Below are positions 22,185 to 30,581 of a DNA stretch of 31,771 bases, piece by piece. The stretch's first letter is position 1, and every line of letters begins with the position of its first letter. Origin of the DNA: a virus; IMG/VR virus record IMGVR_UViG_3300042691_021530, positions 1 to 31,771 of that record; one strand, given 5' to 3'. The position numbers and the translations under genes are program-made. Below the pieces are notes generated by a model. The model saw nothing but the letters and a program-made list of their open reading frames with translations, had not been told where the DNA came from and did not search any database.

Positions 22185-23165
22185 ATGGGACGTTTCACGG
22201 TACGCGACGCACAGCGGCAGCAGGCGAAGCTCCGCCTGATGGCGACGAGCCCGAGCGGCGGCGGAAAGACGTTCGGCTCGCTGCTCCTGGCGGCGGGGCT
22301 CGGCGGGAAGATCGTGCTGATCGACACGGAGCGGGGCAGCTCCGACAAGTACGACCAGCGGCCCGACCTGCCGAAGTTTCGGGTGATCCCGTTCGACCCG
22401 CCGTTCACGCCAGAGGCCTACATCGAGGCGATCGACGCCGCGGAGGCCGACGGGGCCGACGTGATCATCATCGACTCGACGAGCCACGAGTGGGACGGCC
22501 CCGGCGGCTGCCTAGAGCTCGTGGACGAGATCGCCAGGGCGAAGTTTCGCGGGAACACCTGGTCGGCCTGGTCGGAGCTGACGCCGCGACACCGGAAGTT
22601 CATAGACCGGATGCTCGCGAGCCGTTGCCACATCATCGCGACGGCCAGGTCGAAGACGGAGACGGCCCAGGTCGACGAAGGCGGCCGGAAGAAGGTCGTG
22701 AAGCTCGGGATGAAGTCGATCACCCGGGACGGCACCGAGTTCGAGTTCGACGTGGTGCTCGACATCGTCCACGACGGACATTTCGCGGTGGCGTCGAAGG
22801 ATCGGACCGGCGTCTTCTCCGGCGATCCAAAGCCGATCACGGTCGAGACGGGCCGGAAGCTGGCCGAGTGGCTGAACGGTGGAGCGCCGGCGGCTCCGAC
22901 TCCAAAGCCTGCCGTATCCGTCACGCCCCCGCCGGCCGACAGGCCGCTCGTCAGCCAGATCCCCGACTTTTCCGACAGGCCGCTCGGCGACCAGATCCGC
23001 GACTTTATCGCCGTGGCGACCAACGTCCGCACGCTCGGAAAGATCGGCAACCGGATCGACGAGCTCGCCAGCGACGGGCAGCTCACGGCCGAGGAGGCCG
23101 ACGAGCTGCGGCAGAAGATCGACAAGCGTCACGACCAGATCGACCCCGTGAAGGAGACCGCCTGA
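22185..23165 (+). CDS. Sak4-like RecA-fold ATPase (single-strand annealing recombinase candidate)
   Basis: The 326-aa protein has Walker A SPSGGGKT (22-29), an adjacent KIVLIDTERGSSDKY, and Walker B VIIIDSTSHEW (D97) with the His-Glu pair typical of phage Sak4-type and AAA_24 proteins. HIIATARSKTE follows as a sensor-like strand. After residue about 230 come a Pro-rich linker and a helical C-terminus. It would bind ATP and help strand annealing or recombination-dependent replication. The SSB-like gene directly after it fits that role. Confidence 0.82.
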   Translation: MGRFTVRDAQRQQAKLRLMATSPSGGGKTFGSLLLAAGLGGKIVLIDTERGSSDKYDQRPDLPKFRVIPFDPPFTPEAYIEAIDAAEADGADVIIIDSTSHEWDGPGGCLELVDEIARAKFRGNTWSAWSELTPRHRKFIDRMLASRCHIIATARSKTETAQVDEGGRKKVVKLGMKSITRDGTEFEFDVVLDIVHDGHFAVASKDRTGVFSGDPKPITVETGRKLAEWLNGGAPAAPTPKPAVSVTPPPADRPLVSQIPDFSDRPLGDQIRDFIAVATNVRTLGKIGNRIDELASDGQLTAEEADELRQKIDKRHDQIDPVKETA

Positions 23166-25693: not shown

Positions 25694-25696
25694 CAA

Positions 25697-26106
25697 GGCA
25701 GGCTTGGCAGGGCACGGCGAGGCAAGGCGTGGCAAGGCGTGGCAAGGCAAGGCAGGCAGGGCAAGTCGCGGCCTGGCTCGGCGCGGCTCGGCGTGGCAGG
25801 CGTGGCCCGGCATGGCTCGGCTCGGCAGGGCTGGGCGCGGTTTGGCAAGGCAGGCGAGGCTAGGCGGGGCGAGGCGGGGCGCGGCACGGCATGGCAGGCA
25901 AGGCGGGGCTTCGCAGGGCGTGGCCAGGCGAGGCATGGCAGGCAGGGCATGGCGTGGCGTGGCAGGCATGGCAAGGCGAGGCGAGGCTCGGCCAGGCGCG
26001 GCCAGGCGCGGCAGGAATGGCACGGCAAGGCGTGGTTAGGCGCGGTGAGGCGAGGCTCGGCAGGCAGGGCGTGGCAAGGCGCGGCAAGGCCCGGCATGGC
26101 AGGCAA
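25697..26106 (+). repeat. 84-unit GGCNN pentamer array with ten GGCA tetramers
   Basis: The entire gap between two genes parses, without remainder, into 84 units: 74 pentamers of form GGCNN and 10 tetramers, every one of them GGCA. The GGC core is intact in 78 units, while the two following bases vary (AA, GT, GA and GC are most common). The GGCA units start at 25697, 25751, 25795, 25849, 25893, 25937, 25961, 26010, 26059 and 26098, mostly 39-54 nt apart. Open frames in several phases are a by-product of the period and do not look like protein. Possible roles are given in the findings. Confidence 0.9.
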
Positions 26107-26124
26107 GGTTTTCTTTCTGAAAGG
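26106..26124 (+). repeat. T-rich leader element, copy 2
   Basis: This is the second copy of the 19-nt RGGTTTTCTTTYTGARAGG element, directly at the end of the GGCNN array and running into the AAGGAG (26121-26126) of the next gene. See copy 1 at 24505-24523. Confidence 0.55.
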
Positions 26125-26135
26125 AGTCGCAACTG

Positions 26136-27035
26136 ATGGCCGGTGAATGGATCCCCTACGACGTCTGCCTGCCGCACAAGCCCGAGGTCCTCGAGCTCGT
26201 GGACATGACGGGCCTCGAGGTCGACCAGGTGGTCGGCCGCCTGGTCCTGCTCTGGGGCTGGGCCTCGCTCAACAGCTCGGACGGGACGGCCCGGCTGTCG
26301 GTCCGGCTGCTCTGCCGGCTGTGCGGCGGGGACGAGGCTTTTTGGGAATCGGTCCAGTCGGTGGGCTGGCTCGTGATCGACGCGGAGGCGGGAACTGTGG
26401 CGATCCCCGGATGGGAGCGTCGGTTCTCCAAGACCGCGAAGAGCCGGGCGATGGAAACGGCCAGAAATCAGGCCGCAAACGCCAAAAAGGACACGTCTAC
26501 GCGCGCGGCGCGTACGTCTACGCGCGCAGCGCGTGCGCACAACGCGCGCGGCGCGTCAGAGAGAAGAGATAGAGGAGATAGAATTTCTTCTTCTTCCCCC
26601 GAGGTCGCTGCGCTCGAGGAGCCCGGCAGCGGGCCTTCCGGCCCGCCTGGCTGGGAGACGCTCCGGGAGGCCTGGAGGGCCGGCAAGGGCCGCCCGTGGG
26701 CTCTCCCGACGGCCCCGGACCGGGCAGCCGACCGGCTGGCCGAGGACGGGTGGTTCGAGAAGGCCCTGGCGGCGATCGACCGGCTCCCGGCCTGCAAGTA
26801 CTTCCGCGACCCGGTGACGCTGCCCCAGTTCGTGGCGCCGGGGTTCGTGGACAAGATCCTGGGCGGGCAGTTCGACAACGCCCGGGACGCAGCTCGAGGT
26901 CCGGCCCGGCTGGACGACCGGCCCCCGCCCCAGGAATGGCGTGGGGAGGACGCGGCCCGGTTCGAGGCGACGAAACGGGCGATGGCAGACAAGCTCCGGG
27001 CGATGGAGTCCGGGGTTGGTTCGGTTGATTCCTGA
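26136..27035 (+). CDS. Replication initiator-like protein (phage winged-helix N-terminus)
   Basis: The 299-aa protein opens EWIPYDVCLPHKPEVLELVD, then VVGRLVLLWGWASLNSSDG, AFWESVQSVGWLVID and IPGWERRFSKTAKSRA. I recognise this as the N-terminal domain of phage replication or DnaD-like proteins. A low-complexity linker (residues about 120-165) holds three iterons in its DNA. The C-terminal part (WETLREAWRAGKGRPW, KYFRDPVTLPQFV) resembles the helicase-loader-contacting end of such proteins. The role is inferred: origin binding and helicase recruitment. AAGGAG lies at 26121-26126. Confidence 0.75.
   Translation: MAGEWIPYDVCLPHKPEVLELVDMTGLEVDQVVGRLVLLWGWASLNSSDGTARLSVRLLCRLCGGDEAFWESVQSVGWLVIDAEAGTVAIPGWERRFSKTAKSRAMETARNQAANAKKDTSTRAARTSTRAARAHNARGASERRDRGDRISSSSPEVAALEEPGSGPSGPPGWETLREAWRAGKGRPWALPTAPDRAADRLAEDGWFEKALAAIDRLPACKYFRDPVTLPQFVAPGFVDKILGGQFDNARDAARGPARLDDRPPPQEWRGEDAARFEATKRAMADKLRAMESGVGSVDS
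26499..26595 (+). other. Probable replication origin: three phased iterons plus A+T-rich stretch
   Basis: Within the initiator-like gene, ACGCGCGC[G/A]GCGCGT occurs at 26499-26513, 26520-26534 and 26542-26556, spaced 21 and 22 bp, that is two helical turns. Copies 1 and 3 are identical. The next 39 bp (26557-26595) are 25/39 A+T in an otherwise G+C-rich gene, with a purine run then a pyrimidine run. This layout copies the lambda origin inside gene O. Function is inferred. Confidence 0.65.
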
Positions 27036-27049
27036 ACGAAAGGACTCGT

Positions 27050-27364
27050 ATGCGATTTCTCAACGGATTGATTCTTGCCCTCCTGCTCTGCGGTGCCGCC
27101 TCGGCCCAGACGACGATCGTCGCGCGCCGCCCGGTGATCGTGACGGCGCAGGATCACGCCCTGGTCCTCGCACGCCGGGGGACGCTCGTGCACTCGAGCT
27201 GCGGACAGACGGAGGGGATCGGCTGCGGTGCGACTGCACAGCAGGCGCGGGAGAATTCGTGTTACTACCGCGACGCGATGGCAGGCCGCCGCGTGATCGT
27301 CGACGAGGGCGTAGCCTACTCGCCGGCGACGCGCCGGTGGTTCGCGGTGATCCGGTACCGATAG
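27050..27364 (+). CDS. Small secreted protein with signal peptide
   Basis: The 104-aa protein starts with a clear Sec signal, MRFLNGLILALLLCGAASAQ, cleavable after ASA (near residue 19). The mature part has three cysteines (SSCGQ, GIGCGA, NSCYY) and ends RWFAVIRYR. The ribosome site AAAGGA is at 27039-27044. I associate this pattern with small exported proteins of planctomycetes, but the role is unknown. In a phage early region it may be a lysogenic-conversion gene. The coupling to the initiator-like gene is loose (14 bp gap). Confidence 0.7.
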   Translation: MRFLNGLILALLLCGAASAQTTIVARRPVIVTAQDHALVLARRGTLVHSSCGQTEGIGCGATAQQARENSCYYRDAMAGRRVIVDEGVAYSPATRRWFAVIRYR

Positions 27365-28430: not shown

Positions 28431-28868
28431 ATGGAATCCGTCACGTTCCACGTTCCCGGCCAGCCCGTCCCGCAGCCCCGCCACAAGATCAGCACGCGCG
28501 GCGGCTTCGGACGGGCGTATATCCCGGCGCGGCACCCTATCCACGCGTATCGCGAAGCTATCGCCCTGGCCGCGAAGCTGGCGGCGAAAGAGCGGAGGGA
28601 GGGGGGGGGTGTCCGTCTGGAAATTTCTTTCGCGTTCCAGCGGCCGCCGTCGCATTGGACGAAGGCGGGCCTCGCGAAGGGAGCCCCGACGATCCCGCCG
28701 AAGTGCGACTGGGACAACCTGGGGAAGGCCGTCAGCGACGCGATCACCGACTCGAAGTCGCTCTGGTACGACGACGACCAGGTCGTAGAGGCGATCGTCC
28801 GGAAGCGCTACTGCCGGCGGGGCGAGCCGCCGGGCACGACGGTCACCGTCCAGGGCGTGCCACCGTGA
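28431..28868 (+). CDS. rusA: RusA-type Holliday junction resolvase
   Basis: The 145-aa enzyme resolves four-way junctions formed during recombination. It has the RusA signature: FHVPGQPVPQPRHK near the start, KCDWDNLGKAVSDAITD (D93, D95, K99) and LWYDDDQVVEAIVRKRY (D114-116). Length is slightly above E. coli RusA. A run of nine G at 28601-28609 interrupts the middle and encodes Gly residues in a loop. It works with the Sak4-like and SSB-like proteins. Confidence 0.93.
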   Translation: MESVTFHVPGQPVPQPRHKISTRGGFGRAYIPARHPIHAYREAIALAAKLAAKERREGGGVRLEISFAFQRPPSHWTKAGLAKGAPTIPPKCDWDNLGKAVSDAITDSKSLWYDDDQVVEAIVRKRYCRRGEPPGTTVTVQGVPP

Positions 28869-29523: not shown

Positions 29524-30581
29524 GCGTGAACGTCACGGCCAGCTCGTCCACGATCACGGCCACGGCCACCGGGACGGCGGTGGAGGCCGGCGTCAGCTCG
29601 TCGACCGTCTCGGCCTCGAGCTCGGGCGGCGTCGGGCCGCAAGGCCCCGCCGGACCGACCGGACCAGGTGGCAGCGACGGCGACGACGGGTCGTCCGGTG
29701 TGGTTAGCGTCGTCGCGCCTATAACGAACACCGGCACCAGCTCGGAAGCGACTATCGGGCTGTCGTACGGGGGCGGCCTGGGCGTCTTCGAGGGGAACCT
29801 GATCGTCTTCGGCGTGCCCCAGTCGTCGGTCACCGGGCTCGTAGACGCCCTGATCGGCAAGGCGAACGCTTCCCACGCCCACGGGGCGATCACGGCCAGC
29901 GGCGCTATCGGAACGACGTCCGGACGGATCGTCGTCACCGGGGCGAGCGGCGTCCTCACGACGGCCGCCACGATCTCGCTGTCGCAGATCTCGCAGTCGT
30001 CGGCGACTACAGGCCAGGTCGTGGCGTGGAACGGGACCGCCTGGGCTCCCGCTGCGGCTTCCGGCTACACGCTGCCCAACGCCACGACGTCCACGCTCGG
30101 AGGCGTGATCGTCGGCACCGGCCTGGGCGTCGCGAGCGGGACCATATCGGTCTCGTTCGGGACCTCGAGCTCGACGGCCTGCGTGGGGAACGACGCCAGG
30201 CTCTCCGACAGCCGGACGCCGCTGGCACACACCCACGCGATCGCCGACGTTACGAGCCTCCAGACGACTCTCGACGGCAAGGCGGCGTCCAGCCACGGGC
30301 ACGCCATTGCGGACGTTACGGGACTCCAGACGGCCCTCGACGGCAAGCAGGCGTCCGGCAGCTATGCGGCGGCATCGCACACGCACGCAGTCGGGGACCT
30401 GACGCAGAGCGGAGCCACGACCAACCAGGTGATCCAGTGGAACGGGTCCGCGTGGGCACCGGCGACCGTTTCGGGAGGAGGGGGGGGGAGTACCTCGGCC
30501 TCCGATTTGACGAGCGGCACGCTTAACGACGCCCGGCTCTCCTTCGTGCCCTTCCACCCGTTTCTCCTGATGGGAGGCTGA
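29520..30581 (+). CDS. Tail fibre with collagen-like segment and HxH motifs
   Basis: The 353-aa protein starts with GTG. Residues 1-35 are Ser/Thr/Val strands, then a short collagen-like GVGPQGPAGPTGPGG. Three HxH-type repeats follow (ASHAHGAI, AHTHAIADVTSLQTTLDGK, SSHGHAIADVTGLQTALDGK, with a further SHTHAVGDL). Such histidine pairs bind metal in trimeric fibres such as T4 gp37. NGTAWAPAAAS and NGSAWAPATVS are sister repeats. A nine-G run lies at 30480-30488. Confidence 0.85.
   Translation: MSVNVTASSSTITATATGTAVEAGVSSSTVSASSSGGVGPQGPAGPTGPGGSDGDDGSSGVVSVVAPITNTGTSSEATIGLSYGGGLGVFEGNLIVFGVPQSSVTGLVDALIGKANASHAHGAITASGAIGTTSGRIVVTGASGVLTTAATISLSQISQSSATTGQVVAWNGTAWAPAAASGYTLPNATTSTLGGVIVGTGLGVASGTISVSFGTSSSTACVGNDARLSDSRTPLAHTHAIADVTSLQTTLDGKAASSHGHAIADVTGLQTALDGKQASGSYAAASHTHAVGDLTQSGATTNQVIQWNGSAWAPATVSGGGGGSTSASDLTSGTLNDARLSFVPFHPFLLMGG

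Follow-up and report, generated by a model that had tools for sequence, protein, structure and literature searches.

Does a cluster of short repeats inside a phage replication initiator gene serve as the origin for that initiator? An origin placed inside the initiator gene is the textbook arrangement of lambda, and the residue-level basis on which phage initiators of this kind select their iterons is, to our knowledge, poorly resolved. The question is raised here by a 31,771 bp stretch of DNA with a G+C content of 68%, comprising one IMG/VR virus record and referred to below as the window, in which the first-pass annotation proposed a lambda-like origin.

The initiator gene and its internal dyads

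The initiator gene, with the putative origin inside its coding sequence, occupies positions 26136–27035 (+ strand) and encodes 299 residues; the sequence AAAGGAG lies just 5' of its start, at about 26119. The protein matches phrog_2509 (`replication initiation protein'; E value of 1.2e-23 over residues 1–152) and phrog_9474 (E value of 6e-18), and has 80 close relatives in IMG/VR. A Pfam search gave no match to the protein at E ≤ 1, the C-terminal domain included, and the DnaT DNA-binding domain (PF17948) was likewise not found in it. The AlphaFold model of the N-terminal domain, for which aligned rows from annotated phage records were left out, has a winged-helix core at residues 16–89 (26181–26402, + strand; mean pLDDT of 85.8). 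The structural matches to this core are the phage proteins `Replisome organizer' and `Primosomal protein 1', and a fold search of the PDB with the initiator returned weak winged-helix matches only (MarR/CRP). The core is followed by a long basic helix that is predicted at residues 93–117 (26412–26486, + strand; pLDDT of around 70), within which A101, K102, R104 and R110 are invariant and which is the proposed reader of the iteron arms. The C-terminal domain (approximately residues 170–245; 26643–26870, + strand) is a block that is conserved among the relatives and is a candidate helicase-recruitment domain. The protein sequence of the linker is poorly kept among the relatives.

The three copies of a 15-mer reported in the first-pass annotation are indeed present in the linker of this initiator-like protein, 360–420 bp into the coding sequence, at 26499–26513, 26520–26534 and 26542–26556, and their start-to-start distances are exactly 21 and 22 bp. 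Two properties had been overlooked. Each copy is a perfect dyad, to which no strand is assigned, with 6 bp arms and a 3 bp spacer (ACGCGC-N3-GCGCGT, the spacers being GCG, GCA and GCG, respectively), and the third copy (frame 1) is in a different reading frame to the first two (frame 0). Iterons 1 and 2 both encode TRAAR and iteron 3 encodes NARGAS. No further perfect ACGCGCN3GCGCGT was found within the 31,771 bp window. Markov shuffles contained 0.03 perfect dyads per genome (maximum of one) and none of 100 contained three same-arm dyads within 60 bp, which rules out a chance origin of the repeat.

The adjoining 39 bp stretch (26558–26596) has an A+T content of 64.1%, in agreement with the earlier description, compared with 32% genome-wide. 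This value is extreme but not unique, because two other sites, around 24,508 and 27,651, exceed it slightly (six of 31,732 windows of equal size). The proposed unwinding element has two halves: a purine-rich, A+T-rich tract (26558–26583, + strand) that starts 1 nt after iteron 3, and then the pyrimidine run TTTCTTCTTCTTCCCCC (26584–26600, + strand). This run is the second-longest homopurine/homopyrimidine run in the window and can form a hairpin with the purine tract (DNA fold z of −2.8 against shuffles). Two long G-rich homopurine runs, GGAGGGAGGGGGGGGG (28594–28609) and GGGAGGAGGGGGGGGGAG (30473–30490), are located near or in tail-type genes.

Conservation of the design among relatives

IMG/VR scans recovered several hundred loci, and these were reduced to 125 distinct window-type genes (MAGEW start) and 84 cultured-type genes (mostly MAGDW). 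The expectation that the iterons would be kept where the protein sequence is not was examined in approximately 120 distinct related contigs. It was borne out for the dyad layout, the spacing of 21–24 bp and the A+T-rich tract junction, the encoded peptides being different, but not for the literal 15-mer, whose lack of conservation reflects arm switching from one genome to another. Arms of the form ACGCGC-N3 were found only in the window and in one relative (L049). Nearly all of the relatives share a common plan of two to four dyads, 21–24 bp apart, ending beside the same purine tract, with an arm sequence that varies between genomes and is nearly identical among the copies within one genome. 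The other arms of the window type are GGGCGC-N3-GCGCCC, GTGCGC with N4 or N5, and CTGCGC, CGGCGC, CGACGC, CGACGG, CGATGC and CCGCGC with N4; at least 11 arm classes, defined by arm and spacer length, are present.

Iteron calling was anchored on the purine tract. Automated calling gave a clear result for 107 of the 122 sequences with a recognisable tract; the remaining 15 have irregular or weak arrays only, six being GTGCGC arrays with a degenerate last copy that were assigned by hand and the rest irregular. The 82 distinct origins have mostly two or three copies each, and their 124 iteron spacings are 22 bp in 74 cases, 23 bp in 44, 24 bp in four and 21 bp in two. In 69 of these origins the junction is that of the window, with the last dyad ending 1 nt short of the purine tract; the copies occupy more than one reading frame in 78, and the spacers take 77 forms, varying freely while the arms are kept. 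Perfect dyads of a genome's own arm number 174 inside the initiator genes, compared with one in 562 kb outside them. The reading frames, the variable spacers and the confinement of the dyads to the initiator gene therefore do not result from selection on the peptide. The frames and the restriction to initiator genes indicate a function of the DNA.

The N-terminal domain is homologous to those of the cultured phages PAN70, VW-6S, CP2, Olaya and TL-2011b (hhalign 99.2% over residues 1–117, group alignment). The phrog_2509/phrog_9474 initiators of phages of Pseudomonas (PAN70), Xanthomonas (CP2 and Olaya) and Escherichia (TL-2011b) resemble that of the window in having the winged-helix and basic-helix domain and, in the same place in the gene, palindromic half-sites followed by a purine tract. 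Unlike those in the window, the half-sites are TAACG and CGTTA, separated by a gap that is always 7 bp in the cultured-type sequences (a range of 5–9 bp was scanned), and mostly form one central dyad with flanking half-sites; two of each half-site are present in 63 of the 84 cultured-type sequences. The C-terminal domains also differ from that of the window, with a DnaT domain (PF17948; E value of 1.1e-18) in the TL-2011b relative. PAN70, VW-6S and Carin1 have DnaC-like or P-like genes immediately 3' of the initiator, and PAN70 has a DnaB gene as well. Since initiator genes of this family from cultured phages of Pseudomonas, Xanthomonas and Escherichia carry TAACG-N7-CGTTA dyads and a purine tract (L166–L174 and MAGDW-type IMG/VR loci), the origins of these phages are probably located inside the initiator gene as well.

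The dyads could have a role other than that of an origin. Their palindromic form and size are typical of operators, and a winged-helix protein that might repress or time its own gene is encoded around them. However, the sites lie deep inside the coding sequence, no sigma-70-like promoter was found nearby (GC-rich hosts may use others), and both the fixed junction with the A+T-rich tract and the parallel with lambda favour an origin. Operators with no origin are therefore considered to be improbable, although the two roles could coexist. The repeats might instead serve the protein as a disordered linker that is both repetitive and basic, such as TRAARTSTRAARA, as the identical peptide encoded by copies 1 and 2 of the window would suggest. 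This idea is barely tenable given that the same dyad is read in different frames, and as different peptides, in 78 of the 82 origins, that the arms are palindromic with variable spacers and that the linker protein is poorly kept; a repeat at the amino-acid level was rejected on the basis of the reading frames. The fold of the region, which as DNA is better than that of its shuffles, raises the further prospect of hairpins that act as RNA (an attenuator or another structured part of the mRNA) or as a site for packaging or partition. An RNA element was rejected as there was no Rfam match, while the tract and spacing fit an origin and the arms are coupled to a helix of the initiator itself (see below), so that this whole class of explanations is very improbable.

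Covariation of one helix face with the iteron arms

Besides the dyads, their placement, their conservation at the DNA level and their restriction to the initiator gene, the computation shows covariation of the arms with one face of a helix. A tree was built from codons 1–97 only, leaving out the helix and the linker. Changes were assigned by parsimony on this one tree, which has 27 weak forks, and the P values treat branches as independent, with recombination possible; on this basis the arm class changes 28 times. The changes at codons E107, N111 and A114 (26454–26477, + strand) follow those of the arms: 19 of 30 changes at residue 107, 16 of 20 at residue 111 and 13 of 22 at residue 114 fall on arm-changing branches, against a baseline share of 29% for residues 1–94 and 23% for third codon positions. 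These three residues are related as i, i + 4 and i + 7 and form one face of the predicted helix that follows the winged-helix core. Residues 105, 106, 109, 112, 113, 116 and 117 have 0–34% of their changes on arm-changing branches, so that plain proximity to the iterons fails to account for the pattern. Intermediate shares (0.41–0.47) are seen at residues 108, 115 and 118, and residue 100 has seven of 13.

In the N4 clade, residue 107 tops all 118 columns for arm base 3. The pairing of residue 107 with this base is His with G in 39 origins, Gln with A in 11, an acidic residue with A in two, Asn or Ala with G in three, Gln with G in two and His with C in one; both of the Gln-with-G cases (L211 and L212) carry mixed arms, CAACGC included. 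One near-minimal pair (L128/L122) has Q107H as the sole helix difference and arms of CGACGC versus CGGCGC, with the A/G difference at arm base 3 in all four half-sites. The independent pairs on the tree, at most five per test, are too few on their own, and every one is in the expected direction or neutral. The window and L049 share the arm class ACGCGC and E107/N111/A114, yet are not sisters on the codon 1–97 tree, which suggests the exchange of a helix-plus-iteron cassette.

We give an even chance to the proposal that residues 107, 111 and 114 each read arm bases (Gln107 with A3, His107 with G3 and Gln114 with T2), as a specificity code that has been revised repeatedly; competing phages, satellites or defences that target origins may have driven the revision. 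The covariation could also be mere linkage within a recombining cassette of helix and iterons, with no direct reading of the arms by these residues: the helix codons end approximately 15–45 bp before the iterons, and the arms and helix shared by the window and L049 are as cassette exchange would give. Linkage is a possible but rather unlikely account, as the co-change is concentrated at the three residues and not at the seven near-baseline neighbours or at synonymous sites, the rest of the helix is identical in L128 and L122, and the lead of residue 107 in the N4 clade (Gln or an acidic residue with A and His with G) has few exceptions.

Comparison with known origins and a proposed mechanism

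The origin of lambda and Stx phages lies in the middle of gene O, with inverted-repeat iterons beside an A+T-rich region, and each lambda iteron is a 19 bp imperfect inverted repeat (PMC7466680). The lambda iteron starts are 20, 24 and 23 bp apart. The window dyads (26499–26556) are similarly located inside the initiator coding sequence, where they would act as the origin; as in lambda, several inverted-repeat iterons are in phase, about two helical turns apart, with an A+T-rich, purine-biased tract directly downstream. Unlike lambda and Stx phages, which have four to six iterons of 18–19 bp, the window has three GC-rich dyads of 15 bp, and unlike lambda there is no P gene next to the initiator. 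The term `lambda-like' used in the first-pass annotation is thus apt for the architecture and not for the proteins: direct homology of the initiator to lambda O (Phage_rep_O) was rejected (hhalign probability of 0.4%; no Pfam match), and no match to lambda P-type or DnaC/DnaB genes was found among the window genes. The IstB/DnaC and DnaB_C domains (PF01695 and PF03796) were found neither in the window nor in nine related records, where a diverged loader is possible; helicase loading would therefore proceed via the host or an unrecognised protein.

We consider it very probable that the initiator gene contains a lambda-like iteron origin, at which initiator dimers bind the dyads through helix 93–117 and open the adjacent A+T-rich tract, and to which the host helicase is brought. 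One initiator dimer would sit on each palindromic iteron via the helix that follows the winged helix, with residues 107, 111 and 114 setting the arm specificity. Three such dimers, two helical turns apart on one face of the DNA, would form a complex resembling the lambda O-some, which would open the adjoining purine/pyrimidine tract. The host replicative helicase would then be brought in by the C-terminal domain, acting by itself or with the help of an unrecognised factor, leading to theta replication. Binding, contacts, melting, helicase loading and the start of replication are the steps that we infer.

A comparable coupling has been described in PLE satellites, in which the DNA-binding domain of the initiator covaries with the origin, allowing escape from the origin-cutting nuclease Odn (PMC8263062). 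The window family resembles these RepA/ori modules in that the iterons covary with the DNA-binding domain and the two are exchanged together as one module (PMC8263062). It differs in that RepA_N is another family, the PLE origin is intergenic and only two types have been described there (PMC8263062), whereas in the window family the arm/spacer types number at least 11 and single-residue steps are seen. Lambda is itself blocked by ectopic lambda origins (PMC4488673), and origin-targeting or rival-origin pressures could lie behind the arm switching.

This kind of origin is already known; it is the number of natural specificity switches, together with the single-residue pairs, that makes this a useful variant. 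The sites and the three residues have switched together many times in approximately 90 distinct relatives, which offers a natural origin-recognition code. These natural initiator–origin pairs span 11 or more arm/spacer types, with near-minimal pairs among them, and thus permit direct tests of both the recognition code and replicon incompatibility. A phrog_2509-like gene with internal dyads 21–24 bp apart, ending at a purine tract, also provides a simple sequence signature for origins in uncultured phages. A host assignment from MAG contigs was rejected, as the two short contigs carry conflicting names (Planctomycetota and Burkholderiales) and are probably binned phage DNA.

Directly 3' of the initiator, the gene at 27050–27364 encodes a small secreted-like protein with a signal-peptide-like start, not a helicase loader, and its product has no Pfam or phrog match. 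A GGCNN pentamer-like array of approximately 415 bp (25694–26108), whose coding strand is rich in G, stops 28 bp short of the initiator start; among 210 distinct loci, similar arrays are present 5' of the initiator in L015, L036, L041, L129 and L208 only. The GC skew of the window is dominated by this GGC-rich array at 25.7–26.1 kb and is not informative on the origin. Upstream of the origin, the gene at 22185–23165 encodes a phrog_1366/AAA_24 protein that is probably a Sak4-like recombinase, since its relatives also match Sak4-like ssDNA annealing proteins. A 36 bp tandem repeat is located inside this gene at 22936–23006.
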